DNA of 48,672 nucleotides from assembly GCA_021790335.1 (NCBI GenBank), contig JAJYEE010000020.1, forward strand, positions 1 to 48,672, read 5' to 3'. Below the pieces are notes generated by a model that was given only the letters and a program-made list of their open reading frames with translations, made no database searches and was not told where the DNA came from. Numbering within the stretch: position 1 is the stretch's first letter; every line of letters starts with the position of its first letter. The stretch is from Pseudomonadota bacterium (GTDB lineage: Bacteria > Pseudomonadota > Gammaproteobacteria > Acidiferrobacterales > UBA6901). Both the position numbers and the translations under genes were made by a program. This document shows, piece after piece, positions 7,344-31,261 of the stretch.

Positions 7344-8123
7344 TTAACCGAACGTGTCCTCGTAGCTGCGATACAGGCCGCTGACGAAGAACGGCAGCGC
7401 GATCAGCCCGAGAACGAACAGTACCAGGTAATCCTTCGGAAAATCGAGCGCAAAGTACAGCAAATCTGCGACGGTGCTGATGATCGCAAACGGCAACCCG
7501 AAAACGACGAGCGGCACGGCGTTGTGCATGCAGGCACTAAAGCTCTTCTCGATCGCAGACAGCGGATATTCCTTCTTGAACAGCACCAAGGGCACTGCAT
7601 AGAAAATAGCCATTATCAAGGCAACCTGCAACACCAGAACGATCAGCAGACTGATCAGCGCCGGCAGCCAGATCGCCGGCCCGACACTGCCAGCGAGCAT
7701 GGCCGGGAGCGCCGGCCCGCCCACCTTGAGCAACTGCGCAAGGATCTCGATCACTACCGCGGCACTCAGTGTGAGTGTGCTGATCACCATGATGGGAAGC
7801 AGCTCAGACTCCAGGGTGAACCCGCCGAACAGCTGACGGATGGCGCGATGCAAGTGGCCACGCGCCCCGCGTGCGCTCCTGCCACTCGCGCCTCGCGCCT
7901 GCGCCTCGAGGTCGTGGGCGCCGTGCAGCACACCGGCGAGCATCGTGGGACTGATCAAAATCAGAATAAGCACCCCTATGAACGGGATCATCTTGAGCGC
8001 AAGGGCAATGATCATATAAATGAAGGTCATTCCGCCCCAGAGCATCCAGTCCTTGCGCAGCAGGTCCCAGCCACCGGAGATCCACGACCAGCCACGTCGC
8101 GCCCCGCTATTCATCGATTTCAA
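7344..8123 (-). CDS. BPSS1780-family membrane protein
   Basis: A 259-residue inner membrane protein with about six hydrophobic segments; the start WSWISGGWDLLRKDWMLW and the end FFVSGLYRSYEDTFG are typical of the BPSS1780 family of unknown function. Segments lie near residues 30-65 (two), 120-150, 160-195, 205-225 and 235-250, with a basic cytoplasmic loop in the middle. I chose the TTG at 8123 because GAGGAG sits about 9 bases before it; an ATG three codons further in is too far from that site. It ends in a clear terminator. No functional clue from neighbours. Confidence 0.8.
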   Translation of the reverse strand: MKSMNSGARRGWSWISGGWDLLRKDWMLWGGMTFIYMIIALALKMIPFIGVLILILISPTMLAGVLHGAHDLEAQARGASGRSARGARGHLHRAIRQLFGGFTLESELLPIMVISTLTLSAAVVIEILAQLLKVGGPALPAMLAGSVGPAIWLPALISLLIVLVLQVALIMAIFYAVPLVLFKKEYPLSAIEKSFSACMHNAVPLVVFGLPFAIISTVADLLYFALDFPKDYLVLFVLGLIALPFFVSGLYRSYEDTFG

Positions 8124-8189
8124 CGCTGCGACTCCTCTTTAAAAATTAACATCGGCCGTTGTGCGCCAACACATGCCTGGATCCGCGGC

Positions 8190-9167
8190 CTATCCGATCA
8201 CGGCCAGCTGCCGACCGTCGGGCCAGACGCGGCGCGCCATGGATTCGGTCTCGATACGGTCCAGGAGGATGCGCCTGGATGCTTCCGGATCAAGGCCAGA
8301 TACACCCCACCCCAAACGCGGAAAGTGTGCATCGTAAAGCGCCGACAACCAGCTGTGCAAGGCGGCCGCACGCAGCAGCACCGGCCACGCTCCGCATTCA
8401 AGTGCGGTCAGGGGGCGCAGCACGTGGTAGGCAGCGAGAAGCGCCCGCGCCAGGTGCTCATCGATGCCGCCATCGCCGCGGCTGCACCAGTCGTTCACAG
8501 CAACCGCGAGATCATATAGCAGGGCATCAATACGGAAATGTGGGACACCAACCAGGCCGCTGGCGTGCCCATCCTCCAAAAGAAAGCCCGCGCGGACCGG
8601 GTTGGCGTGAATGATGCCGCGCGGCAAATCGACAAGACGGTAGAGCGCCTGGAATCCGAGCTCGCTTGCCAGCAGCCGTTCATCGGCGTGGACCAGACGA
8701 CTGCGGACGCGTTGCGTTAAATCCCGCCACACCTGCCTGCGGTGATCCTCAGGCAGTTGCTGCGGAAAGCTCCGGCCGGCGACGTGTAATCGCGCCAGCA
8801 TGGCGCCGGCGGCAGCGCAGCGAACCGCTTCGGGCGCTGCCTGGCGGATTCCACACATCACCCCGGCCAGAACGGCAGGCATTTCGTGCAGAGTCCCGAT
8901 CCGTCGGCCTGATCCGCCTCGCAGCGGCTGAGGGCAGGGAATCTGTTGCCGGGCAAGAAAGTCGGCAAGGTCCGGGATCAGGGCAACTCCGCTGACCGTG
9001 GCCGATGCGAACACCGTGAGCACATAGTCCCCGCGCTCGGTGGAAACAAGGAAAATCCCGCAATCGGCAGGCGTCCGGATACGGTCGCACGAAAGCACAG
9101 CACCCGTCGCATACTCATCGAGAAAACACTGCAGCGCGCGATCATTGGTAGGAACAGCGACCGGCAC
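8190..9167 (-). CDS. Homoserine kinase (ThrB, APH-fold) homologue lacking catalytic residues
   Basis: A 325-residue protein aligned along its length with type II homoserine kinases: GDYVLTVF, LPRGIIHA, IDALLYDLAVAVNDWC, RPLTALECGAWPVLLRAAAL and SWLSALYDAHFPR are family signatures. The usual catalytic block H-A-D-L-F-R-D-N-V-L-F reads HANPVRAGFLL, losing the catalytic Asp and the Mg-binding Asn. The following I-D-F strand (Mg-binding Asp) reads VGVPHF, and the N-terminal ENTNYF loop reads ADCGIF. It is therefore probably a pseudokinase, with true homoserine kinase elsewhere. GTG start at 9167 with GAGG upstream; 10 bases after the DUF2782 gene, in the neighbourhood (next to polA) where thrB often lies. 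Confidence 0.8.
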   Translation of the reverse strand: MPVAVPTNDRALQCFLDEYATGAVLSCDRIRTPADCGIFLVSTERGDYVLTVFASATVSGVALIPDLADFLARQQIPCPQPLRGGSGRRIGTLHEMPAVLAGVMCGIRQAAPEAVRCAAAGAMLARLHVAGRSFPQQLPEDHRRQVWRDLTQRVRSRLVHADERLLASELGFQALYRLVDLPRGIIHANPVRAGFLLEDGHASGLVGVPHFRIDALLYDLAVAVNDWCSRGDGGIDEHLARALLAAYHVLRPLTALECGAWPVLLRAAALHSWLSALYDAHFPRLGWGVSGLDPEASRRILLDRIETESMARRVWPDGRQLAVIG

Positions 9168-20484: not shown

Positions 20485-20871
20485 ATGCAATCTGAAAATC
20501 GCTCCGCCAGCACCGGGGATCGCCAAGCCATTCTCGATGCGCTACGCCACCCCGGACAGGAAGCGGATTGGCTGATCGAGCGTCACCTGGGGTTTCCTAA
20601 CGGTGCGCAGGGCTGCAAACCCTATACCCGCAGCGTTGAGGCAGCTTTGGCGCTGTTACCGGCGGGGGTGTTCTTTCACTGCGGACGTTTCGCGGAGGGC
20701 ACGATGTTCTGGTGCGATGTAGGAAGTCGTCCGCAAGTCCAGGCCTGGGGCGAGAATCTGGCCGCGGCCATTGCCGGAGGGATCTTCGCCTACCTCACCC
20801 ACCCGGACGTGCAGGACAGCGTCGCGGCACAGGACGCCAAGCCCGGCCCCGAGCCCGGTACAACCGGCTAG
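20485..20871 (+). CDS. Hypothetical protein
   Basis: A 128-residue protein read from the ATG at 20485 (MQSENRSASTGDRQAIL). An open frame continues upstream to 20335 but those residues are arginine-rich and look non-coding. The centre has AALALLPAGVFFHCGRF and EGTMFWCDVGSRPQVQAWGENLAAAIAGGIFAYL; the end is proline/glycine-rich. I recognise no family. It is 273 bases after the peptidase and converges on the large regulator, overlapping its stop by 4 bases. Coding nature rests on codon-like composition and the lack of a competing gene. Confidence 0.5.
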   Translation: MQSENRSASTGDRQAILDALRHPGQEADWLIERHLGFPNGAQGCKPYTRSVEAALALLPAGVFFHCGRFAEGTMFWCDVGSRPQVQAWGENLAAAIAGGIFAYLTHPDVQDSVAAQDAKPGPEPGTTG

Positions 20872-23450
20872 TCGACCTTGCTGCCGGGAAGACCGTAGCG
20901 CTCCAGTTTGTAGTGCAGTGTGTTGGGCCGCAGGCCCAGAAGGCGCGCGGCTTTGGATTTGTTGCCTCCACAACGCTCGAGCGTCTGCGCGATGATGCGT
21001 GCCTCGAATGCAGTCACGTAGTCATCCAGCGTACTGCCTGCTGCCGGCACATCGATCGCAACTGCGGCCGGCGCGGATCCGGCTGCCAGCAGCCGGCTGC
21101 CAAGCGCGTGGAATACCGCGCGCTTCAGCGCTGTCACGGTCTCCGGATGGGCGGTAAACAGCTCGTCCGTCTCGACCCGGTTTAGACCGACGCACACGCC
21201 GCTCTGAAGATTGAATTGGAGAGTAAAGTAGCGGACCAGCAACGCGCCGTCGTCCCGTCTGCCGCTCAGACGGGGCATGTCGATGCACAGAGGCGGGTGT
21301 TGCTCGTGTATCAGCGGTGAATGCGGACCTGCGCCCGCATCGCAGGCAACGATGACGCGCACGCCTGCGCCGCTCAGGTGAGTGGCACGCGATTGCGTGC
21401 GCGTGTCGTCCGCGGGCGAACCGCAGAAACAGAGAATCAGGAGCGTCCCTCCCTGCAGCTCCGCGGCCTCTGCGCCCGGGTCTGATTCGTTGTCTGCAAC
21501 GGTTGCGGGCAGCAGCGCACGGAACGGGCCGGGGCGCCCGCTCGCGGCATGCATGTGCCGCGCCAGAGCGACAGCCTGGCCCATATCCGCAGTCCTGAGG
21601 AGCACCGGCTCATTGAATCCCGCCAGACTGGAAGCTGCTGCCATCTGGCCAGCAAAGGCGTCACTTTGGCCGATCAGAGGCTGTTCGGGATCATGGACCG
21701 GGTAAGTTGCCTGCCGCAGGACGGCGAGACCGCGGATCGCCCGGGCCGCCGTTTCCGCCGCCCACGCACCATCTGGCAGTATCTCGGTCAGGCTTCCGAG
21801 CAGCTTCTCCCGGTGGACGGCGGCAAACGCCGATGCCGCCGGACCATACAGCAAGGCCGCGATCTGTCCGCGACGCTGCCCGAGAAGCTCGGGCAGTTCC
21901 CCGACCGCCTTGTCGTCGACGGCATCGACCCGTACCACCAGGATATCCGGCGTCGACTGGCGCTGGAATCCGGCCGAGTGCAGGCCGACATAGTGGTCGA
22001 GCTGCGGAAAGTGCAACCGCAGATTCCGCAGCATGGTCTTATCGCGACCGAGCAGCGTGATCGCCGCGGCCAGCGGTCCGTTGGGCGAAAGCGCCTCGAG
22101 TTCGCTCGCGGCGAAGGCGGCGATGCTGCCGAGCGGACGTTCCTGCTGAAGGCTTGCGTTCTGCCGCTGCAGAGCTTCATTGTGGCGATGCAGCGAATCC
22201 ACACTGGCCTCCAGTTCCCGCTGACGATTCTGGAGTTCATGGATGCTGCGCGACGCTTCAGACAGCTGGGCACGCAGGATCAGCAGCTTGTCGAGGAACA
22301 GGTCTGCCATTCTGTCGAACAGCTGCTCGACCATCTTGAAGTCGAGCCGGGTATAGACCTGTTCGCTGAAAGACCCCCCCAGGAGAAGCCAGCCGGCCGC
22401 ATGCCTGCTCCGCGGATGGAAGGGCACGACGGCGGCGATGCCATGGCGCCTGAGGGACCAGCATGATTCCGGATTCGAGTCCGCGATTTCATTGGCCACC
22501 ACGATTTGATCGATTCCGTCCAGCACCTGCCGCGGGATTTCCGCCATGCGGCGCGAGCCGCCGACCTCGGCGAGGATCGGCAATTCCGGCCCGACCAGCG
22601 CAACCGGGCAACCTAGCGTCGTCGCCAACCGGTCCAGGATCTCGCCGGACGAGGCTAGATCGGCAATCTCGGCAACCAGCTGGCGGATGCGTCCGTAGAA
22701 GGCGGTCTTGCGCTTGCGTTCCTTCGACCAAGGTATATAGAACTGGATATCGAACAGACGGTTCTGATGGGTGGCATATGCGGTTACGATCAAGAAATAG
22801 GTCGTCAGAACGGGCTGCAGCGATGAAACGTTGATCCATGTGACTCCCAGGCGCAGAAGAATGACGACCGCGATGATTACGGCCGCCATGGGCAGAATGG
22901 CCAACAGCAGCATCGAATTCTTCAGGCGGCTTTGCGGATTTTCCTGGCGATACGCCCCGCGAAGCAGCACGCCGACCGCGCCCCCGACCGTGACAATCGC
23001 GTACAGCTCGAGCAGAAAATAGAGCGGGCCGGGGACACGAGTGACGATGAAATGATGGAATACATAGCCCCGGATCAGCAGCGGCGAAAACAGCAGCAGC
23101 CCGGCGAGCAGCAGCGCCGAAGGATAAACGGCGCCAGCTGCCAAGCTGATCGCGCGGCTACCGCGCTCGAAAGCCAGGCTGGCAGCAAGGTGCAAAAGAA
23201 CGGCAACGGCGAGAATCTCCGTCAGGTAGAACAGGGTCGCCTCCGGATAGGGCGTATGGCGGGCGGCGATCTCGATGTACCCGGGAATGAGCGCCAGGTT
23301 CTGGACGAAGAACAGCGCCAGAAGGGCCATGTAGATCCGCGTCTGCGGGTTCCGGGTCCTGGCGTGATAGGCGTAGGCGAGCAGACCAGCCTTGAGAACC
23401 AGCGCGATGGCGGCCGGCAGGATTACGAACAGATAGATTTTCCATTCCAT
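20868..23450 (-). CDS. Membrane-bound regulator: 7TM, GAF, pseudo-receiver, degenerate AAA+, Fis-type HTH
   Basis: An 860-residue protein. Seven transmembrane helices fill residues 5-227, ending YATHQNRLFDIQFYIP as in PrsK-like sensor N-termini. A GAF-like domain (about 265-390) and a coiled coil (393-436) follow. Residues about 465-580 resemble a receiver (GRDKTMLRNLRLHF, PDILVVRVDAVDD). Residues 590-785 align with a sigma-54 activator AAA+ domain: PLIGQSDAF opens it and GVRVIVAC, PRLSGRRDDG and LKRAVF keep its order. Walker A is lost (TADMGQAV), Walker B reads LILCFCGS, and no GAFTGA is present. The end is a Fis-type HTH (GGNKSKAARLLGLRPNTLHYKLER, 828-851, in two parts). It probably binds DNA while anchored in the inner membrane. 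Only the ATG at 23450 fits; a TAA lies six codons upstream and there is no ribosome site. Confidence 0.8.
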   Translation of the reverse strand: MEWKIYLFVILPAAIALVLKAGLLAYAYHARTRNPQTRIYMALLALFFVQNLALIPGYIEIAARHTPYPEATLFYLTEILAVAVLLHLAASLAFERGSRAISLAAGAVYPSALLLAGLLLFSPLLIRGYVFHHFIVTRVPGPLYFLLELYAIVTVGGAVGVLLRGAYRQENPQSRLKNSMLLLAILPMAAVIIAVVILLRLGVTWINVSSLQPVLTTYFLIVTAYATHQNRLFDIQFYIPWSKERKRKTAFYGRIRQLVAEIADLASSGEILDRLATTLGCPVALVGPELPILAEVGGSRRMAEIPRQVLDGIDQIVVANEIADSNPESCWSLRRHGIAAVVPFHPRSRHAAGWLLLGGSFSEQVYTRLDFKMVEQLFDRMADLFLDKLLILRAQLSEASRSIHELQNRQRELEASVDSLHRHNEALQRQNASLQQERPLGSIAAFAASELEALSPNGPLAAAITLLGRDKTMLRNLRLHFPQLDHYVGLHSAGFQRQSTPDILVVRVDAVDDKAVGELPELLGQRRGQIAALLYGPAASAFAAVHREKLLGSLTEILPDGAWAAETAARAIRGLAVLRQATYPVHDPEQPLIGQSDAFAGQMAAASSLAGFNEPVLLRTADMGQAVALARHMHAASGRPGPFRALLPATVADNESDPGAEAAELQGGTLLILCFCGSPADDTRTQSRATHLSGAGVRVIVACDAGAGPHSPLIHEQHPPLCIDMPRLSGRRDDGALLVRYFTLQFNLQSGVCVGLNRVETDELFTAHPETVTALKRAVFHALGSRLLAAGSAPAAVAIDVPAAGSTLDDYVTAFEARIIAQTLERCGGNKSKAARLLGLRPNTLHYKLERYGLPGSKVD

Positions 23451-23453
23451 TAC

Positions 23454-23485
23454 GGTATCGGAGAATTAAGGTATCGGAGAATTAA
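23454..23485. repeat. Tandem 16-bp repeat at the regulator start
   Basis: GGTATCGGAGAATTAA occurs twice with no gap, ending three bases before the ATG of the regulator (minus strand). It occupies the place where the ribosome site would be. A likely binding site for a protein, perhaps the regulator itself, or a slipped duplication. Confidence 0.85.
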
Positions 23486-23510
23486 TTAGAGTCCGCCCCT
23501 TTTTTGGTTG

Positions 23511-23542
23511 ACGTCCCCGCAGACGGCCAGGGACGTACGTCC
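23511..23542. promoter_or_regulatory. ACGTCC half-sites and 12-bp palindrome
   Basis: ACGTCC at 23511, then the palindrome GGACGTACGTCC at 23531-23542, giving three half-sites upstream of the regulator. The layout resembles an operator for a dimeric transcription factor. Followed on the plus strand by T5, but the palindrome has no loop. Confidence 0.5.
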
Positions 23543-23653
23543 TTTTTAAGATACCAAATTTCTGCTGCAAAAGATGTTCCATTCCCGCAATATCGCCACT
23601 AATTCCGCGCCTTACCCGCGGCATTGCAGGCAATCCGAGGCGTGCCGGGTCAG

Positions 23654-24685
23654 CTACGCCGCGTCCCAGACCAGAGCCGCCTTGCTGATCGCGATGCCGC
23701 TGCCCCCGCCAGTGAGCAGGACCTTGCCGCCGGGAGCGACTTCCCGGTTCTTCTGCAGCAGATAGAGATTGAAGGGTATGTTGGCGGTGGACAGATTGCC
23801 GAAATGGGTGATCGTATCCACCATTACTTCCAGCGACACACCTACATACTGGGCAATGCTCCTGATCATTTTCAGGCTGGCCTGGTGCTGGACGCATTTT
23901 GCTATTTCGGCAGGCTGCCATCCTATTTTGCCGATAAATTCTCGATACATTCTGCTCCAGAGCTTGATTCCTTCCTGGATCAGCGGACCCATATCGGCCT
24001 CGAGCGGCGTGAACGAACCGTTCCGGCCGCAGACGCTGAGCGCGTAGAACTGGGCCTGGGACTGAAGCATGAATCCCAGGAACCCGCTGTCCGGGTCCGT
24101 CTTGGGCCCCATGAGGGCCGCCGCCCCGGCATCGCCGAGACCCAACCCGGATGCGAGCCGGAGGAACTCGCCGCGGTCGTGGCTTTGTCTGAGGGTGTCC
24201 ATGGCGAGTTTCGTATAGCGCCAAGCTTTTTCGCCGGTCACGACCAGCCCGCGCCGCACCTGGCCGGTCGCAATCAGCGTATCCATCAGGTGGATTCCGT
24301 TCATGAAGCCGTGACAGGCGTTGGTAATGTCGAAGCTGACCGCATTGTGTGCCTGGATCTTGCTCTGGACGACGTGGGCGGTTGCCGGCTCGAGAAAATC
24401 CCTGCTCATGCCGGCATAGATGATGGCGTCGATTTCCGATGCCCTGATTTCGGCAGTGGCCATGGCCTCCTCGGCCGCCTGGACCGCCATGTCGGAAGGC
24501 TGGAGGTGCTCCGGCGCGATGCGCCGCTCCTTGATTCCGGTGATGCGCTCGAGCCAGTCATAGGAAACGTCGAATCTGTCCTCCGATTCGATGCGTTCCA
24601 TGATTTCGCGGGAACTGATCCGGTCTTCCGGGATGCATGCCCCGGTGCTGATGAGACGTGAATGACCCTGGGTATACATGTACAT
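23654..24685 (-). CDS. Stand-alone beta-ketoacyl-ACP synthase III (FabH-like)
   Basis: A 343-residue thiolase-fold condensing enzyme. The FabH triad is present: Cys124 in TNACHGF, His267 in VQHQASLKM and Asn297 in HFGNLSTANIP. Also DWLERITGIKERR at the N-terminus and LLTGGGSGIAISKAAL at the end. It lacks neighbouring fabD/fabG/acpP, so it is not the fatty-acid gene cluster; stand-alone KASIII enzymes often make signals or specialised lipids (PqsD, CqsA-like functions, alkyl resorcinols, polyketide starters). ATG at 24685 with GGAGGG 4 bases upstream. It precedes the 7TM regulator gene on the same strand by 203 bases. Confidence 0.9.
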   Translation of the reverse strand: MYMYTQGHSRLISTGACIPEDRISSREIMERIESEDRFDVSYDWLERITGIKERRIAPEHLQPSDMAVQAAEEAMATAEIRASEIDAIIYAGMSRDFLEPATAHVVQSKIQAHNAVSFDITNACHGFMNGIHLMDTLIATGQVRRGLVVTGEKAWRYTKLAMDTLRQSHDRGEFLRLASGLGLGDAGAAALMGPKTDPDSGFLGFMLQSQAQFYALSVCGRNGSFTPLEADMGPLIQEGIKLWSRMYREFIGKIGWQPAEIAKCVQHQASLKMIRSIAQYVGVSLEVMVDTITHFGNLSTANIPFNLYLLQKNREVAPGGKVLLTGGGSGIAISKAALVWDAA

Positions 24686-25399
24686 GTTGCCCTCCGTGTG
24701 CTTGATCTGACGATGCGGGTCGGAACCGGGCGGCACTGGCACGCCGCGTCAGCTCCGCGCCCTGGTTTGCCTACGAGCTGTCCGGGTGGATCGCGCCACC
24801 CCCACCTCGTGGTGGCCACATCATTTGAAATTTTGAATTGTTTTGACAGTGCCAGAGAAAAATAACTTTGGATCAATGTATTGCAGCTGCCGGTGCAGTA
24901 CCCGACACGACACGACGCATCACGGACTGGCGGCCGGGACTGTGGAGGGATGCCATGAATCGTACTACAGCAACAGAAACGGGAACGACGGATCTCTCAG
25001 GAATTCGGCATTGAGACGCCGTCCTGTGCAAACGACGCCTCGGCGGGCGCAAGCGGAGGTTGCCGCCCGACCCGATGCGGTCAGGACAGCGCGCTGAGCG
25101 GGGGTTTATCCGTTTATCGCGGTGACTGCGGTGCGGGGGCGGATGCGCGAATTGGGTGCTGGCACACCAACAACCGTGCGCGAAGCTTATAAATTAAATA
25201 AGTCTTTGTTGGAGGCCTGGCGGCTGGTTTTCTGCGCTGGCCCCATATTTTTATCATGGGCGCACTGCCTGAGGTGGTAATCCTGGATGCACACGGAGCT
25301 TGCGACATGCAACCTGCTGTGGCTGCAGCAAAGCAGCGCGTGCAGTGATGGCCAATGCATGGAACCGACACCGGCAAGCGCCCTCTTGCAGTGGAAAAG
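24686..25399. other. Intergenic region between KASIII and the import locus
   Basis: About 700 bases with AT-rich patches (24815-24880, 25185-25210) and no convincing large gene. It must hold the KASIII promoter (minus strand). The only candidate coding sequence is a 19-codon frame at 24955. I find no terminator or riboswitch with confidence. Confidence 0.6.
24955..25014 (+). CDS. Possible 19-residue peptide
   Basis: Reads MNRTTATETGTTDLSGIRH, threonine-rich, with GGAGGG five bases before the ATG. It lies divergently upstream of the KASIII gene. Too short for composition to support coding; the good ribosome site is the only argument. Confidence 0.2.
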   Translation: MNRTTATETGTTDLSGIRH

Positions 25400-25561
25400 T
25401 CACACCGCCTGCCAGAATCCAGCCACAATGATCGCGCCGACCAGGATCCAGCCGGCGGCGGCAGGGATCCATCGTTGTGCCATATAGGCCAAAGCAATCG
25501 CCAGGGCTACGGATATGATGTTGCGCACGTCCCCGAAGACGAGCTGCAGCAGCTTCCTCAT
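25400..25561 (-). CDS. 53-residue membrane protein in the import operon
   Basis: A short protein beginning MRKLLQLVFGDVRNIIS, with two hydrophobic segments (about 14-27 and 33-50) broken by QRWIPAAAG. Its ATG overlaps the stop of the COG4280-type gene (ATGA), which strongly suggests it is a real, coupled last gene of the operon. The basic N-terminus and helical hairpin are those of a small transporter accessory subunit. No family recognised. Confidence 0.65.
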   Translation of the reverse strand: MRKLLQLVFGDVRNIISVALAIALAYMAQRWIPAAAGWILVGAIIVAGFWQAV

Positions 25562-26304
25562 GCGCGACTCCCTTCGGCTGTGTCGGCGGCTGACAGGCGC
25601 AGCTTCAGGCCGATGAGCCTGCCGGACACTGCGTATACCGCGAACAGCGGCAGCAACGTGACGTCACCCAGCGGCCAGACTGTATGCTCCCCCAGCAGGC
25701 CGCCCACACTCCAGAAACTGCCAAAGGCCAGAAGCGCACAGGCTACGGTGAACTTGAGCGTGTTCTCCGGAACCCGGGTAAGAGGTGCACGCAGCATCAG
25801 GCCCACCACGATGACGGCAAGCAGCGCAACGAGTGCGCTGCCGCTGGCCTGCGCATAGCTGAGAGTGCGGCCCAACGCGACCACCAGCAACCACACTTCC
25901 AGGCCTTCCAAGAGAACCCCCTTGAAGGCCACAAGCCAGGCCACGTGCGCTTCGGCATGCGCCAGATGTTCGCGCGTTTCGCTGAATTCTCTGGCCTCAT
26001 CGTGCAAGGCGGTGCGACCGGCATAGCGGCGTATGGCCTTCACGTACCAGCGCAGGCCGAACAGCAGCAGGAACACGCCAATGACCGCACGAATCCGGTT
26101 GATATCGGCTTTCACCACCGTGAGACCGACTCCAGTGACCGCCACCAGTGCCGCCACCACCACCAGCGCGGCGAGCGCCGCACTCACAGCACGCTTCCAG
26201 CCTATGGACAAGGCCACCGCGAGCACGATGGTGAAAGCCTCCACCCATTCGACGGCGGATGCCAGAAATATCGCGCTCATGCCACCCCATTGCGTTGCGT
26301 TCAT
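25558..26304 (-). CDS. COG4280-type membrane protein
   Basis: A 248-residue inner membrane protein with about seven helices. Two acidic motifs lie in helices, SAVEWVEAFTIVLAVAL (near 16-32) and FKGVLLEGLEVWLLVVAL (near 126-143), arranged like the REGLE-type motifs of FTR1/Fet iron permeases, though the arginine is missing. The family (COG4280) has no assigned function. Its ATG overlaps the ATPase stop and its TGA overlaps the next start, so it is made together with the ABC importer. Inference: a metal permease-like partner of the ABC system. Confidence 0.75.
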   Translation of the reverse strand: MNATQWGGMSAIFLASAVEWVEAFTIVLAVALSIGWKRAVSAALAALVVVAALVAVTGVGLTVVKADINRIRAVIGVFLLLFGLRWYVKAIRRYAGRTALHDEAREFSETREHLAHAEAHVAWLVAFKGVLLEGLEVWLLVVALGRTLSYAQASGSALVALLAVIVVGLMLRAPLTRVPENTLKFTVACALLAFGSFWSVGGLLGEHTVWPLGDVTLLPLFAVYAVSGRLIGLKLRLSAADTAEGSRA

Positions 26305-27374
26305 GCTGACAGGCTCTCCTGGTCAGTTTCAGTCGGATAGAGTAGCGATTGCGCCGGGTCTATGGCCAGCACCAGCTTCGCGCCCGCGGGAGGCGCCTCG
26401 GTAGCCGGCATACGCAGCGTAACACCATGCAGATCGCAGCGTAGTTCCACACCGTCGCCGGTCACGACACTGCCCAATACCCGGGCGTGCGCCGGCCAGG
26501 ACCCGTTCGCCGCCGACTCGAACCGCAGTGCCCGCGCACGCAGATACAAGTGGCCGCTGCCAGTGGGCGGCTTTTTTTCCGGCCCGGATTGCAGCCTGCA
26601 TGCACCCCAGGGTGCGTGCAGAATCCCGTTTTCAATTCTAACAGTCCATGGGCCGAAAGCGTCAGTGAAACGGGCAACTGCTTCGCAGTGCGGGCGGCGC
26701 CAGAGCTCGCGCGGCGCGTCGATCTGCAGCAGGCGGCCGGCTTCCATCACGCCCACGCGATCGGCCAGGGCCAGCGCCTCGCGCCTGTCGTGAGTGATGG
26801 TAAGGGCGGACAGCCCGTGCTCGCGCACCACGCTGCCGATAAGTTCCCGCAATTCCTCCCGCAGGCCGGCATCGAGGCTGGACAGAGGCTCATCGCACAG
26901 CAGCAGCCTCGGGCGCACAGCCAGCGCCCGGGCCAGCGCCACCCGCTGCTGCTGACCGCCCGAGAGTTCGTGCGGTCTGCGTTCTTCGAACCCCTTTAGG
27001 CCCACCCGCTCGAGCATGCGCAGCGCCTGGGCGCGCGCATCGCGTCCTGAGCGCGCGCGCAGCGGCAGGGCGACGTTTTCGAGGGCCGTCATATGCGGCC
27101 ACAGCGCATAATCCTGAAACACCATGCCGAGTCGGCGCTTTTCGGACGGCAGGCCGGGCGCGCCCGGCGCATCAACCACGGCGCCGTCCAGCACTATGCG
27201 TCCGCGATCCACCCGTTCCAGTCCGGCCACGAGACGCAGGAGCGTGGTCTTGCCGGAGCCCGATGCACCCAGCAGACAGACGATTTCGCCGCGGTCGACC
27301 TTCAGAGAGAGGCCGCGCAGTGCATCGTGGTGACCATAGCGTTTGTGCACCGCATCGATTTCCAGAAGTGTCAT
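26301..27374 (-). CDS. ABC transporter ATP-binding protein (Fe3+ type)
   Basis: A 357-residue importer ATPase. Walker A LLGASGSGKTT (about 34-44), Q-loop VFQDYALWPHM, signature ELSGGQQQRVALARAL, Walker B RLLLCDEPLSSLDAG and switch histidine LTITHDRREALALAD. The C-terminal ~120 residues form a TOBE-like domain with LYLRARALRFE, as in FbpC/AfuC and related importers. It powers the fused permease encoded just upstream; 7 bases separate the genes. ATG at 27374 follows GAGGGAT. Confidence 0.92.
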   Translation of the reverse strand: MTLLEIDAVHKRYGHHDALRGLSLKVDRGEIVCLLGASGSGKTTLLRLVAGLERVDRGRIVLDGAVVDAPGAPGLPSEKRRLGMVFQDYALWPHMTALENVALPLRARSGRDARAQALRMLERVGLKGFEERRPHELSGGQQQRVALARALAVRPRLLLCDEPLSSLDAGLREELRELIGSVVREHGLSALTITHDRREALALADRVGVMEAGRLLQIDAPRELWRRPHCEAVARFTDAFGPWTVRIENGILHAPWGACRLQSGPEKKPPTGSGHLYLRARALRFESAANGSWPAHARVLGSVVTGDGVELRCDLHGVTLRMPATEAPPAGAKLVLAIDPAQSLLYPTETDQESLSA

Positions 27375-27381
27375 AGATCCC

Positions 27382-29130
27382 TCATCGCGGCACAGCCGCG
27401 GAAACGGCAAGGCCGCTTTCTGCCGAGATGCGCCTGAAAACGGCGTGGGCCAGCAGCGCGAAGGCCAGCAGCAGCGCCATGCCAAGCAGCTGCAGCCGTG
27501 CCTGCTGGTGCAGCTGGACACCGCTCACCGAATCCAGTAGCGCTACGGCGAGCGGTGGATGTCCCGCAGGATACAGAAGCTCCGAGGCCGGCATCTCGAA
27601 TGCGACGTGGAGCACCGACAGCAACCAGGCCGAGAACAGCGGGCGCGCCAACAGCGGGAGCAGCACGTACCGGAGCGTCTGCAGCCGCGACAGGCCATGC
27701 ACGCGCGCCGCCTCGCTGAAACCATGGTGCAGCTGCGCAACCGGCCCCTGAAGAACCTTCGTGGCCGCCGGCAGTGCCAGCGCCACATAGGCCATCGCCA
27801 GCAGGCTGCTGCCCCCGTACAGTGGCGTGTAGGACTGGTTGTAGGCCAGCACGTAGGCGGCAGCGAGGACAATGCCCGGGAGCGCCATCACACCCAGCAG
27901 CGCAAAGTCTAGGATCCGGCCGGCACGGCCGGCCTTCGCCACCGCCGCGGCCACGGGCCATGCCAGCATCACCGTAACGCTGGCTGCAAGTATGGCCAGC
28001 TCGAGCGAGTAACGGAACGCCGGCAACACGGCATCCAGCATTTGCGGCAGGCTTGAAGAAGTCGAACCCCCGCGGGCCAGGCTGCCGGCAGCGAGTAAGG
28101 GCACGCCCAGCGCCAACGCGGCGAGTGTACCTGCAGCAAGCGTGTGCACCATAGCCGCCGTGCGCCCCAGGCGATGCGGTGGCGGAGGCCGAAAACGCGG
28201 ACCCAGACTGCGCTGGCCTGCGGCCCGTCTGGCGAACCACGCCTGCAGGGCCAACGCCGGAACGATCAGGGTCAACAGCAGCCAGGAGACGGCTGCGGAC
28301 AGCGGAAAGTTCAGCGGCATCGCATTGACCGCCTGCTCGATGGCGTAGGTAGCCATGACAAAACCACTTCCTGCGCCGAGCGTGGCAGCCACCGCGAAGT
28401 CGCTTATGGACTCCGCGAAAGCGGCCGCAAAGCCTGCGGCCAGTCCGGGCAACAGCAGCGCGGCCGCAATCGCGATTCGCTGCCGGCGACGCAGGCCCAG
28501 CACCCGCGCCGCCTCGTCGGGCGCGGCGCTGACCGATCTGAGGCTCGACTGTGTTGCGAGGAAAGTGAAGGGCAACGCCTTGAGCGTCAGCGTCAGCACA
28601 ATGCCAAGTGGCCCCATCAGATGTTGGGCCATGCCCAGCAGCCATGGCCAGCGCGCCAGCGGTCCGACCGGCGCGGCCAGCAGCATCCAGCCGGAAGCGA
28701 GGAAATACCCCGGCGTCACTAGCAGCAGCCACACTCCCGGCTCTATCGAGCCGCGCCACGCCGCCTGACTTCGCGCCTGCAGCCAGGCCAGCCATGAGCC
28801 GAGCGGCAGCGCCAACAGCCCGGCGGCCAACGCCACCACCAGTGAATTGCGTAGCGCCAGCAGCATTCCGCCCTGCAGCGCTTGGGCAAATGGCCTGGCG
28901 CTTGGAGCAAGTGCGCCATGCAGCAGTCCGGGAATGAACGCGCAAGCCAGGAAGCTCAGAAGTGGCCAGCCCCACAAGGCACAGGCTGCCAGTACCAGCA
29001 GTGCGATGCCGGCGAGACCGAGGGCGCTGCGGTAGCGCGACCCTGCGACCCTAGGCGCTTCGGCCGGCAGCGGAGCAACCCGCAAAAGGCCGCACGGGCA
29101 GGGTTCCGTGCTCAGCTCAGGAAGTGACAT
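27382..29130 (-). CDS. ABC transporter permease, fused (FbpB type)
   Basis: A 582-residue inner membrane protein with two homologous permease halves of about six helices each. Each half has the EAA loop that contacts the ATPase: DEAARVLGLRRRQRIAIAA in the first half and SEAARVHGLSRLQTLRYVLL in the second. This is the arrangement of iron(III)/thiamine/aminoethylphosphonate-type importers. The ATG at 29130 lies 14 bases inside the end of the binding-protein gene. A cysteine pair near the N-terminus (EPCPCG) precedes the first helix. Confidence 0.92.
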   Translation of the reverse strand: MSLPELSTEPCPCGLLRVAPLPAEAPRVAGSRYRSALGLAGIALLVLAACALWGWPLLSFLACAFIPGLLHGALAPSARPFAQALQGGMLLALRNSLVVALAAGLLALPLGSWLAWLQARSQAAWRGSIEPGVWLLLVTPGYFLASGWMLLAAPVGPLARWPWLLGMAQHLMGPLGIVLTLTLKALPFTFLATQSSLRSVSAAPDEAARVLGLRRRQRIAIAAALLLPGLAAGFAAAFAESISDFAVAATLGAGSGFVMATYAIEQAVNAMPLNFPLSAAVSWLLLTLIVPALALQAWFARRAAGQRSLGPRFRPPPPHRLGRTAAMVHTLAAGTLAALALGVPLLAAGSLARGGSTSSSLPQMLDAVLPAFRYSLELAILAASVTVMLAWPVAAAVAKAGRAGRILDFALLGVMALPGIVLAAAYVLAYNQSYTPLYGGSSLLAMAYVALALPAATKVLQGPVAQLHHGFSEAARVHGLSRLQTLRYVLLPLLARPLFSAWLLSVLHVAFEMPASELLYPAGHPPLAVALLDSVSGVQLHQQARLQLLGMALLLAFALLAHAVFRRISAESGLAVSAAVPR

Positions 29131-30145
29131 GGGCGGCGAACCAGGACACGACCTTGGGCTCACGCGGTCCCCATCGATCCGGATTCAGCACCAGCGGCCG
29201 TGCGCCCGCCAATTTTGCGAGCACGGGCCGGCCTTCGATGCCGGCGAGCAACGGCTGATAATTGGAATCGGCCGACCGGTCTCCCGCCTGGAGCACCTTC
29301 TGTCCGGCCGGCGAGAGCACGAACTGCACGAAGCGGCGCGCCGCTTGGAGCTTCCCGCCGCGCACCTGCGCACCGATGGCGATATCCGAGGGCAACTCGA
29401 TGCTGGGAGTCGCCGCGACGACACGCAGCCCGGGCTGTCGCTGCACAAGGCCTAGCGCCGCCGAGCTCTGCACGACAGCTACGTCGATCTGCCCGTACTG
29501 AAGCGCGCGCAGGGTTATGCTGTTGCGGGGAAATTCCCGGAGGCCATTGGTTTTGAGCCGCTCGAAAAAGCGCTCTCCGCCCTGCATTCCGAAGTGCTGC
29601 ATCATGCCGGCGACAAAAGGGTAGGTCGGCCCGGATATGGCGGGATTGTTCATGCCCACCTTGCCCCGCAATGCAGGATTTTCGAGATCCGTCCATCGCT
29701 TTGGCCACTCGCTCTTTGGCAGATTCCGGGCGTTTACCAGCATTACCCCGGCGTAGGTCACGCCCACAGGGAAATAGCAGTGGTCAGCAGGCAGCAGTGC
29801 CCGTCCCTGCGCGGTGTAGCGCGCGCTGGGCAGCCAGCCGCAGCTGAGCTGTCGATGGCTGGCGAATTCGCGCATCGCCAGATTGCCGTCGAACCACAGC
29901 ACATCCCATTGCGGGCGATTACCTTCGGCCTGAACCCTTGCCAGCAGCGGGCCGGTGCTCAAGTGCACCAGATTGACGCGGATTCCTGTGCTCTGGGTAA
30001 AGGTCTGCGCGAGTTTTTGGTCATATCCCATGGCCGCATAGACCGTCAGGGTCGCTGCCGTCGCTGGCGCGAAAAGGACGCAGCTCACCAAAAGCCCCAG
30101 CATGGAGGCACGCAAAGCCTGAGGAAAATACAGCAGTCGCATCAT
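29117..30145 (-). CDS. Periplasmic binding protein (Fe3+-type ABC importer)
   Basis: A 342-residue exported protein. Signal peptide to about residue 30 (ASMLGLLVSCVLFAPATAA). The mature part starts LTVYAAMGYDQKLAQTF, the first strand of the family 1/Fe3+-type cluster D binding proteins, and continues with WDVLWFDGN and TYAGVMLVNARNLP. I do not see the paired tyrosines that hold iron in FbpA, so the substrate may be another metal or anion. Two cysteines (LSCGW, DHCYF) could form a disulphide. Two ATG codons lie in a row at the start; the first was used. Confidence 0.85.
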   Translation of the reverse strand: MMRLLYFPQALRASMLGLLVSCVLFAPATAATLTVYAAMGYDQKLAQTFTQSTGIRVNLVHLSTGPLLARVQAEGNRPQWDVLWFDGNLAMREFASHRQLSCGWLPSARYTAQGRALLPADHCYFPVGVTYAGVMLVNARNLPKSEWPKRWTDLENPALRGKVGMNNPAISGPTYPFVAGMMQHFGMQGGERFFERLKTNGLREFPRNSITLRALQYGQIDVAVVQSSAALGLVQRQPGLRVVAATPSIELPSDIAIGAQVRGGKLQAARRFVQFVLSPAGQKVLQAGDRSADSNYQPLLAGIEGRPVLAKLAGARPLVLNPDRWGPREPKVVSWFAAHVTS

Positions 30146-30157
30146 AAGTTTGTGTTC

Positions 30158-30844
30158 TCATCGGTCGTTCAGACGAAAGTGCACCCAGATTTCAAAAGCC
30201 ATGCGTTGGCCTACAAGTTCCGCGGGCGTGGGTGGATAGGATGCGTTGCGGACCGCGCGCTCTGCGGCACGGTCCAGAAGATCGACGCCGCAGCTCCGCA
30301 CTACGCGGATCCCGCTCACGTTGCCGTCACGAAACTCGAACATTACGAGCGTTCGTCCGGTCAGCCGCATGAGGCGCGCGGCTGCGGGGTAGCGCACCGC
30401 CGACTGGATGGCGCTGCGCAGCTCGGCCTCGAAACCCGCCCGGACCGATGCCAGGTCCCGGCTCGCAGGAACGATGGGCGCCACCGGCTGGACATCGGCA
30501 GCGCGGCTAGCCGTCATTGGCCTGGGGTGGACCGGGGCGCTGCGCGGATGCAACTGTGGCTGCGGGTCGGGGAGCGCCTTGTGCACCACCGGCTGTGGCC
30601 TTGGTTTTGGCGCGGGAGCGGGCTTGGGCGGCGGGGGTATGCGCGGCGCGACGGTCTTGGGCGCCGCCTTCATGGCATCAAGCACGATACGTATGGGTGG
30701 CAGCGGGGCTGGAGGCGAGGGTCGCTGCATCCACCAGAAAATGGCCGCAAGAACCACCGCTTCCAGGAGCAGCGCAAGTACTGCCGCTTGCGACCAGCGG
30801 CCTGCATCGCCCGGCCCGGCCAGCGGTGGCTGTGCCTTTCGCAT
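30158..30844 (-). CDS. TonB-type energy transducer
   Basis: A 228-residue protein: one N-terminal helix (about 19-38, ending FWWMQ), a proline/lysine/arginine-rich periplasmic span (about 50-105), and a TonB C-terminal domain (RYPAAARLMRLTGRTLVMFEFRDG..., given here in part) with NASYPPTP. It would pass proton-motive energy to the TonB receptor encoded just upstream. The start is uncertain: ATG at 30844, or GTG at 30856, which overlaps a TGA of an open frame upstream. No exbB/exbD is present here. 12 bases before the binding-protein gene. Confidence 0.85.
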   Translation of the reverse strand: MRKAQPPLAGPGDAGRWSQAAVLALLLEAVVLAAIFWWMQRPSPPAPLPPIRIVLDAMKAAPKTVAPRIPPPPKPAPAPKPRPQPVVHKALPDPQPQLHPRSAPVHPRPMTASRAADVQPVAPIVPASRDLASVRAGFEAELRSAIQSAVRYPAAARLMRLTGRTLVMFEFRDGNVSGIRVVRSCGVDLLDRAAERAVRNASYPPTPAELVGQRMAFEIWVHFRLNDR

Positions 30845-31261
30845 TACCGTGCTCACTGGGGCTGTGCCGAGATTTCTCGCCGGACCGATCCCTGTGCAGC
30901 GTTGGTCCGGGTACACGGGCCGACGCTGGGAGCGCCTCGATCACACATCGCCGCGAACCCGCACAGATCGCCTGAAGCCGGGATGCGGTGTGCGGGCGTC
31001 TGCATCTCCACGGTGATTGCGTAGCGAAACGGACAGCGTGCGGGTGCTGGCGCGACATCGGTGCGCGGCAGGCTTACACCGGCCATGGTGCACAGTCTGT
31101 AAAGGTCAATAAACCGCCGTGCCGGCGCGCGAGTCCGCTCCATTCGGCCGCGTTGCCGAATCCTGCCGCTGCGCACTTGCTTTTCCGACGATGCAACCGG
31201 CCCGTGATACCGGAGGATGCCGGACCACGGGCCGAGCTGCTGCCGATCGATCTGATGTGAA
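30845..31261. other. Gap between TonB receptor and tonB
   Basis: About 415 bases. Just after the receptor stop on the minus strand lies a stem-loop (CGGCCCGTG at 31198 with CACGGGCCG at 31226) without a T-tract. An open frame ends in TGA at 30853 overlapping the GTG alternative start of tonB, but it lacks a ribosome site and I do not call it a gene. Confidence 0.5.

Follow-up and report, generated by a model that had tools for sequence, protein, structure and literature searches.

A ketoacyl-ACP synthase III-type enzyme and a seven-transmembrane transcription factor as a candidate synthase-receptor pair in the Acidiferrobacterales

In a bacterium of the order Acidiferrobacterales (lineage UBA6901; assembly GCA_021790335.1, contig JAJYEE010000020.1), the gene for a stand-alone ketoacyl-ACP synthase III (KASIII) is followed by the gene for an 860-residue transcription factor with a seven-transmembrane (7TM) domain. 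The stretch analysed, referred to as the window, comprises 48,672 nucleotides and is part of a 3.08-Mb genome. Because the two genes are found paired across genomes, and because a predicted operator with only two matches in this genome lies upstream of both this enzyme gene and a second one of FeeM type, it is proposed that enzyme and regulator form a dedicated, autoregulated enzyme-receptor circuit, for which the full mechanism set out below is considered moderately probable. An earlier note, made from the sequence of the window, had proposed that the enzyme makes a ligand sensed by the membrane protein; this signal-circuit interpretation is partly supported by the present analysis.

The KASIII gene is located at 23654..24685 on the minus strand. 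Its frame is open from a GTG at 24742 to 23654, and the likely start is the ATG at 24685, with GGAGG in front, giving a protein of 343 residues. The regulator gene follows downstream on the same strand at 20868..23450, after a gap of 203 bp. Open reading frames (ORFs) and Pfam confirmed the positions, strand and order given for the two genes in the earlier note. The enzyme was recognised by Pfam as ACP_syn_III_C (8.7e-17) and ACP_syn_III (2.6e-11). Its Cys-His-Asn triad, described as complete in the earlier note, was identified as C143, H286 and N316 (362-residue numbering); E118, which that note had not mentioned, aligns with E117 of OleA (SRDFLEPATA over SRDYLEPSTA of the solved structure). 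The best match in a single-sequence search of solved structures was to OleA entries (1.5e-35), and a search with the family profile gave 195.7 bits for an OleA entry compared to 163.2 for the best FabH. Entries 3row, 3s21, 5vxd and others, labelled 3-oxoacyl-[ACP] synthase III in the database, are those which we take to be OleA.

E118 and the triad are kept in 43 of 43 aligned ketoacyl synthases (KAS) of more than 300 residues, pieces of up to 300 residues and loci without usable gene calls having been left out of the alignment. The species scan described below used the motifs NAC[HL]GFM and EP[AS]TAH, by which motif conservation is biased; the glutamate was also identified in 17 of 17 KAS proteins holding only the cysteine motif of the scan, which were hence unselected for the full glutamate motif. 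This glutamate corresponds to E117 in OleA and to E105 in PpyS, and the E105A exchange in PpyS abolished photopyrone production (PMC4578411).

Two other identities for the enzyme were rejected. As a housekeeping FabH it reached 149 bits, under the NCBIfam fabH cutoff of 292.1, and the true FabH of this genome (445.6 bits) is encoded on contig C66, flanked by plsX- and fabD-like ORFs as judged by eye; a normal role in fatty acid synthesis, named in the earlier note as the finding that would speak against a signalling module, was thus not what was found. For the OleABCD olefin pathway the partner genes were not found: no oleB, oleC or oleD gene adjoins the KASIII gene, and OleC had no match at E<=1e-20 in this genome, oleB and oleD not having been searched for genome-wide. 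An OleC search in nine genomes gave matches in three only, at 26-30% identity. With OleA as the nearest solved structure and with E118 and the triad conserved, the enzyme most likely condenses two acyl chains, and with OleC missing it would do so outside the known olefin pathway.

For the regulator, Pfam identified HTH_8 at residues 814-852 (3.7e-16) and, under its cutoff, HisKA_7TM (E 0.0011; 19.3 bits with a gathering score of 28.6). The AlphaFold2 model (pLDDT 76.4, pTM 0.43) contains the seven helices and the domain order that had been read from the sequence before. On the minus strand, the gene encodes in this order a seven-helix membrane domain, its helices 4 and 5 joined by a beta-hairpin (residues 2-227; 22770..23447), an alpha/beta GAF-like domain (residues 268-360; 22371..22649), a coiled coil (residues 368-435; 22146..22349), a pseudo-receiver without phospho-acceptor pattern (residues 461-580; 21711..22070), a pseudo-AAA+ domain without Walker A or GAFTGA (residues 590-790; 21081..21683) and a Fis-type DNA-binding helix-turn-helix (HTH; residues 808-852; 20895..21029). 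The membrane domain and the coiled coil were assigned from the model, the HTH from HTH_8 and from the model, where it spans residues 808-851, the pseudo-receiver from the model and a match to NtrX, and the pseudo-AAA+ domain from a motif check and a structural match to PspF (VIA-align Z 16.9, root-mean-square deviation (rmsd) 3.3, 205 residues). Foldseek matched the C-terminal half to NtrX, LuxO and PspF. Among the domains claimed in the earlier note, the seven helices and the receiver-like, AAA+-like and HTH parts are therefore borne out by the model; the GAF assignment stands on model secondary structure only, Pfam having found no GAF match in the protein.

The earlier term "pseudo" for the receiver and AAA+ parts proved appropriate. 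Walker A, GAFTGA and the phospho-Asp pattern of receivers are absent from all 12 long regulators of an alignment (A5), which also includes four short regulators that have no receiver or AAA+ part. All three ordinary NtrC-type loci of this genome carry GETGTGKE or GESGTGKE, plus GAFTGA. A role of the regulator as a sigma-54 activator was rejected on account of these losses, which affect the ATPase motif, the sigma-54 contact motif and the phospho-acceptor in 12 of 12 long forms. Neither of the two proteins had a match to a LuxR-type receptor or a LuxI-type synthase in Pfam or NCBIfam.

Shorter relatives of the regulator were also identified. Short forms of about 460-540 residues are without the receiver and AAA+ parts, and in a minimal form of about 300 residues the 7TM domain is fused directly to the Fis-type HTH, with nothing between. 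The minimal form is encoded downstream of KAS in Marinomonas, Exilibacterium, Pseudomaricurvus, Arenicella and other Gammaproteobacteria, and HisKA_7TM was detected (E<=0.01) in 9 of 30 minimal members, with 3.5e-9 as the best value. The model of a minimal regulator (pLDDT 88.6) matched 8jcx (mGlu2-mGlu3) with a Z of 17.5 (rmsd 3.1, 210 residues), and the model of the window regulator matched the follicle-stimulating hormone receptor with a VIA-align Z of 17.1 (rmsd 3.9, 230 residues), both values to be read beside the Z of about 14 that mostly helical models may attain even where no clear relative exists. Foldseek E-values for the minimal model were weak (1.3e-3 at best), and a sequence search with chains of G protein-coupled receptors (GPCRs) gave no match at E<=1. 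Bacteriorhodopsin was not among the structure matches listed, an absence which proves nothing. In view of the weak Foldseek values, the missing sequence match and the behaviour of helical models, the resemblance of the predicted 7TM bundle to GPCRs is read as a probable likeness of arrangement and not as proof of common descent.

Some regulators depart from these layouts. In one genome only (G036), the 7TM, GAF and HTH parts of a 916-residue protein (L084:7353-10103, minus strand) are preceded by a periplasmic binding domain (Peripla_BP_6 3.9e-50, ANF_receptor 3.5e-26), a layout which recalls class C GPCRs; a stand-alone binding protein is encoded close by (L084:13554-14651). In G038 (L120:11107-12728), the HTH of a short regulator lies in a separate 60-residue frame right after the 7TM frame, which may reflect a frameshift, an error in sequencing or a protein made in two pieces. 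Loci L148, L149 and L166 contain one KAS gene followed by two tandem 7TM-HTH genes.

The pairing of the two genes was followed in the order, in a species scan and in a sample of the class, with gene calls from a simple custom caller, which gave no usable calls in L134 and L138. Among 57 genomes of the order, a close relative of the KAS is present in nine, and in eight of these it adjoins a 7TM regulator; in G044, one paired copy is cut by the contig end. The ninth genome, G003, contains a KAS broken by two stop codons with no regulator beside it (L075, contig 107, about 7755-8815), which retains an operator-like site with a score of 25.8 at 8801; the FeeM pair of this genome is present. In G024, which fell under the KAS threshold, KAS fragments lie beside the regulator. 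Counted from the side of the regulator, which occurs in 17 genomes of the order, KASIII adjoins it in eight, KASIII fragments in one, a FeeM gene takes this place in three, and neither is present in five.

The scan covered one genome per species for 84,980 species and yielded 242 KAS relatives, the best 80 of which were kept. It partly repeats the order and class genomes (L107 is G004, L108 G003, L109 G046, L110 G025, L111 and L122 G044, L112 G011, L120 G038, L124 G238, L147 G098, and L135 and L143 G198). Among these 80, KAS genes of more than 200 bits occur in 46 loci, and in 37 of them the KAS gene is immediately followed by a 7TM gene of the same orientation. Two more have it within 1 kb, convergent and adjacent in L135, and divergent with a called 225-residue ORF between in L123. 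The remaining seven are L119, which ends 420 bp past the KAS, L108, the broken copy of G003, and L131, L134, L138, L140 and L161. No 7TM gene was found in the 34 loci with KAS genes of up to 200 bits, a search with the minimal-form profile (E<=1e-3) included. The cluster in L161 is OleABCD-like and contains a KAS of the wider family, and in L140 (10037-12682), from a deltaproteobacterial metagenome-assembled genome, the family KAS is followed by a GH3-type gene.

In a sample of 369 genomes of the class, for which scoring was limited to the five to six best candidates per genome, KAS (E<=1e-70) and 7TM-HTH genes (E<=1e-12) were identified in the same seven genomes, representing 4 of 272 genera. 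Here, all 11 KAS genes found have a 7TM neighbour, and 11 of the 14 7TM genes lie next to a KASIII gene, the other three being the FeeM-paired paralogue of this genome, a solo gene in Arenicella and one by polysaccharide-like genes as judged by eye. The Arenicella solo regulator (L210:9751-10662, G198 contig 1) has a neighbourhood which, compared by gene order and lengths, matches that of a locus on contig 1 of G405 with a complete pair (L217); an apparent loss of the synthase, as in a LuxR solo, is suggested. Co-occurrence across genomes, named in the earlier note as the way to check its idea, was thus strongly favourable in the scan and in the class. Its question whether the regulator occurs mostly without KASIII received a mixed answer in the order, where 8 of 17 adjoin it, and a favourable one in the class sample. 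In a sample of 398 genomes of the phylum the 7TM regulator was found in this genome only, matches elsewhere being restricted to the HTH range, and the 7TM-HTH protein had no match on plasmids.

In total, both genes occur close to each other in 46 distinct loci, 39 from the scan and seven more (the window, G017, and five more in G198, G310 and G405). No third gene common to the clades, such as an exporter or a tailoring enzyme, was found in 47 loci selected by their KAS; in these the KAS cluster occurs in 45, the 7TM cluster in 39 and the next commonest cluster in eight. Over 37 pairs, the distances between KAS proteins and between 7TM domains are correlated with r = 0.89, a value not reached in any of 5000 permutations, and with r = 0.90 over the 23 minimal pairs. 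HTH distances, taken from 53 columns only, correlate less with those of the KAS (0.68 for the 37 pairs, 0.57 for the 23 minimal ones). The nearest neighbour is identical for KAS and 7TM in 21 of 37 pairs, and three genomes (two Arenicella, one ALOHA_ZT_16) contain two paralogous pairs each, which group apart as pairs.

A second pair in this genome involves a different enzyme. A FeeM-type gene (113.6 bits for PF21926, with a cutoff of 27), for which the FeeM structure 2g0b was matched at 1.6e-9, is directly followed by the gene of a short, paralogous regulator that seems to be divided between contigs C51 and C17. FeeM genes are present in 4 of the 57 order genomes, each time directly upstream of a 7TM regulator. 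Since all four genomes belong to one genus and share the synteny, the FeeM pairing probably goes back to a single evolutionary event.

Upstream of the enzyme genes a common palindromic site was identified. In the window the predicted operator, ATTCAAAATTTCAAAT, is located at 24823..24838 on the minus strand, 138 bp upstream of the KASIII ATG, and is conserved in the genus. The clearest palindromes upstream of KAS genes read ATTCAAAATTTTGAAT, in surrounding DNA that is unlike, and a consensus near TTCAA-N4-TTGAA is present upstream of both KAS and FeeM genes. Of 44 regions upstream of KAS genes, taken from every type of locus, 8 contain the exact form, compared to 2 of 415 control genes. A matrix built from sites of other groups, picked by eye, gave the window site as the top match of the whole window, and in 14 of 16 loci it placed the top whole-locus match upstream of the KAS at a distance of less than 400 bp (missed in L115 and L120); L111, which has no upstream sequence, L119, L123 and G024 were excluded from this test. 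In L114, L116 and L117 the top match, 308-312 bp upstream, differs from the site picked for training. With a matrix made from KAS sites alone, the top match fell upstream of FeeM in all four loci, at a distance of 122-139 bp. Scores range from 19.8 to 32.0 at 12 of 14 enzyme loci, with 17.6 at G024 and 12.4 at G038.

A pattern derived from the sites has two matches in this 3.08-Mb genome, one before the KAS and one before the FeeM gene. In five genomes of the genus it has six matches, all upstream of KAS or FeeM and one in each of the other genomes; the reversed control gave two matches in seven genomes. Since the pattern was itself built on the KAS and FeeM sites already known, information comes solely from the lack of further matches.

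On these computational grounds, namely the pairing, the conservation, the catalytic residues, the predicted fold and the operator position, the following mechanism is proposed. The KASIII enzyme would join two fatty-acyl thioesters in a non-decarboxylative Claisen condensation, as the glutamate shared with OleA and PpyS suggests, and release a beta-keto lipid or a derivative of it. That the regulator senses this lipid product is the best inference; its 7TM domain would bind the lipid within the membrane. In the window regulator, the signal would then pass through the GAF-like, coiled-coil and pseudo-NtrC domains to the Fis-type HTH, and in relatives of about 300 residues straight from the 7TM domain to the HTH. 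The HTH may bind the palindrome upstream of the enzyme gene and from there control, in either direction, both the enzyme and the regulator itself, so that a feedback loop would result. In the same genus, the paralogous regulator would work likewise with the FeeM-type N-acyl amino acid synthase. If the product also left the cell, the pair could serve signalling between cells.

A number of observations weigh against this proposal. The right half of the window operator departs from the palindrome at two bases, and the perfect palindrome is absent from this genome. Only 4 of the 24 perfect palindromes in 17 order genomes (0-5 each) lie upstream of KAS; one further copy is near a regulator, and 19 of the 24 are away from any known pair or regulator, with no recognisable regulon among those inspected (four without a locus excluded). 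The site-derived pattern has one match in a member of the family that lacks the system, the operator motif was not found in a search at minimal-type loci, and strong operator-like sites are present at two enzyme-less regulator loci of G036 (L088 28.1, L083 21.5). Pfam detects the HTH in 21 of 30 minimal regulators only, the KAS and 7TM trees also share species history, and the regulators without KAS or FeeM in five order genomes lie mostly by fatty acid degradation genes. Finally, the site-derived pattern has no match in this genome beyond the two enzyme sites, a result more readily explained by local feedback than by a broad quorum-sensing regulon.

This last result keeps a private feedback loop a serious rival to cell-cell signalling. 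In that case the enzyme would make a membrane lipid or ketone for its own cell, the regulator would act as a private thermostat, and nothing would be exported. Besides the restriction of the operator pattern to two enzyme genes, the absence of a third gene such as an exporter from the clades and the membrane location of the receptor, at the place where a lipid of this kind would build up, are consistent with product homeostasis. More typical of signalling systems are the exchange of the synthase for an unrelated FeeM-type enzyme, the several paralogous pairs per genome and the solo receptor whose neighbourhood suggests enzyme loss, and homeostasis is held to be unlikely, with a chance that is still appreciable.

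An alternative source of the ligand was also considered, namely that the regulator senses external or metabolic compounds, such as free fatty acids or the acyl-CoA state, and controls the use of fatty acids, the KASIII gene being a mere target. Regulators of relatives in the order lie by fadE-fadA-fadB-fadD and FadL-type genes even without KAS, and one relative carries the periplasmic binding domain on its 7TM domain. Against this, the KAS-less fad loci L076-L079 have no strong operator-like site (best 12.6), by which a fad regulon as the main operator target was rejected; in the KAS-less fad locus L088 the 28.1 site lies between the regulator and hemH, not at fad, and in other lineages only the KAS remains with the regulator. 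A sensor of fatty acids is therefore regarded as distinctly unlikely. That the two genes are unrelated neighbours, together by chance or shared ancestry as the hemL-thiE-thiD-hemH synteny inherited within the order might suggest, is highly improbable, since the pair is kept in dozens of loci with differing surroundings, occupies identical genome sets in the even class sample and shares its operator.

The gene neighbourhoods differ between relatives. In nine loci (L067-L069, L072-L074, L077, L079 and L088) a fadE-type gene is oriented divergently from the regulator locus; in most cases genes of the fadA, fadB and fadD types come after it, and some of the loci have FadL-type genes close by. These assignments are based on gene clusters of the order loci and on Pfam for genes of L077 and L069. 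In the window and in G004, iron and ABC transporter genes occupy the position of fadE. In the window these lie upstream of the pair on the same strand (25558-30916) and comprise an iron-permease-like gene (OFeT_1), an ABC transporter consisting of ATPase, fused permease and binding protein, and TonB genes; the same set also flanks the pair in G004. A direct repeat, TTAATTCTCCGATACC twice, is located at 23451-23490 immediately ahead of the start codon of the regulator. A scan for sigma-70 promoters found none. In G036, the operator-like sites mentioned above are located at 7TM regulators (L083:7591-9867 and L088:6851) where no synthase gene was seen, and one L083 site immediately precedes a gene that carries a PAAR motif.

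In CqsA/CqsS and LuxI/LuxR, the gene for a dedicated synthase lies beside the receptor gene. CqsA is a pyridoxal phosphate enzyme, LuxI an acyl-homoserine-lactone synthase, and CqsS a multi-helix membrane receptor and histidine kinase for a lipid-like ketone. Different from the CqsS and LuxR systems, receptor and DNA-binding protein are one polypeptide here. PluR is said to be a LuxR-type partner transcription factor that reads the photopyrone signal; unlike PluR, the present regulator is placed in the membrane by its 7TM domain, carries a Fis-type HTH and has no LuxR match. By analogy, the logic of the proposed circuit would resemble both CqsA/CqsS and PpyS/PluR. PpyS of Photorhabdus, like the enzyme described here, is a glutamate-bearing ketosynthase, and according to PMC4578411 it makes a fatty-acyl-derived signal. 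With OleA the enzyme shares the triad and the glutamate, without the partner genes of the olefin pathway. The C-terminal half of the regulator has the receiver-AAA+-HTH order and fold of the NtrC family (NtrX, PspF, LuxO), but the motifs are lost in the long forms and the middle part is absent from the short and minimal ones. The seven-helix domain recalls that of HisKA_7TM receptors and, in predicted arrangement, that of GPCRs; unlike the former the regulator has no kinase domain, and it showed no sequence match to the latter.

As the earlier note had presumed, no description of the enzyme-regulator pair was found in open-licence PMC papers, among the titles and abstract starts listed. The receptors of known bacterial lipid signals are, to our knowledge, either soluble proteins of LuxR type or histidine kinases in the membrane, and we know of no precedent for a membrane-bound 7TM transcription factor with its own lipid synthase. 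The pairs may thus represent a new class of circuit, in which one-component transcription factors of GPCR-like fold, each with its own exchangeable OleA- or FeeM-like synthase, read a lipid in the membrane without kinase or second messenger; this wider proposal is put forward tentatively, its chance being judged a little short of even.

If the circuit exists as proposed, a 7TM receptor would itself be the transcription factor and would be encoded beside the synthase of its presumed ligand, which would make for a very short signal route. The form of about 300 residues is small enough for structural and reporter studies, and the predicted GPCR-like fold of these proteins would offer a bacterial model for the transfer of a lipid signal from a seven-helix bundle to a domain in the cytoplasm. 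A direct handle on the specificity of the receptor would come from the exchange of OleA-like and FeeM-like synthases behind a similar operator.

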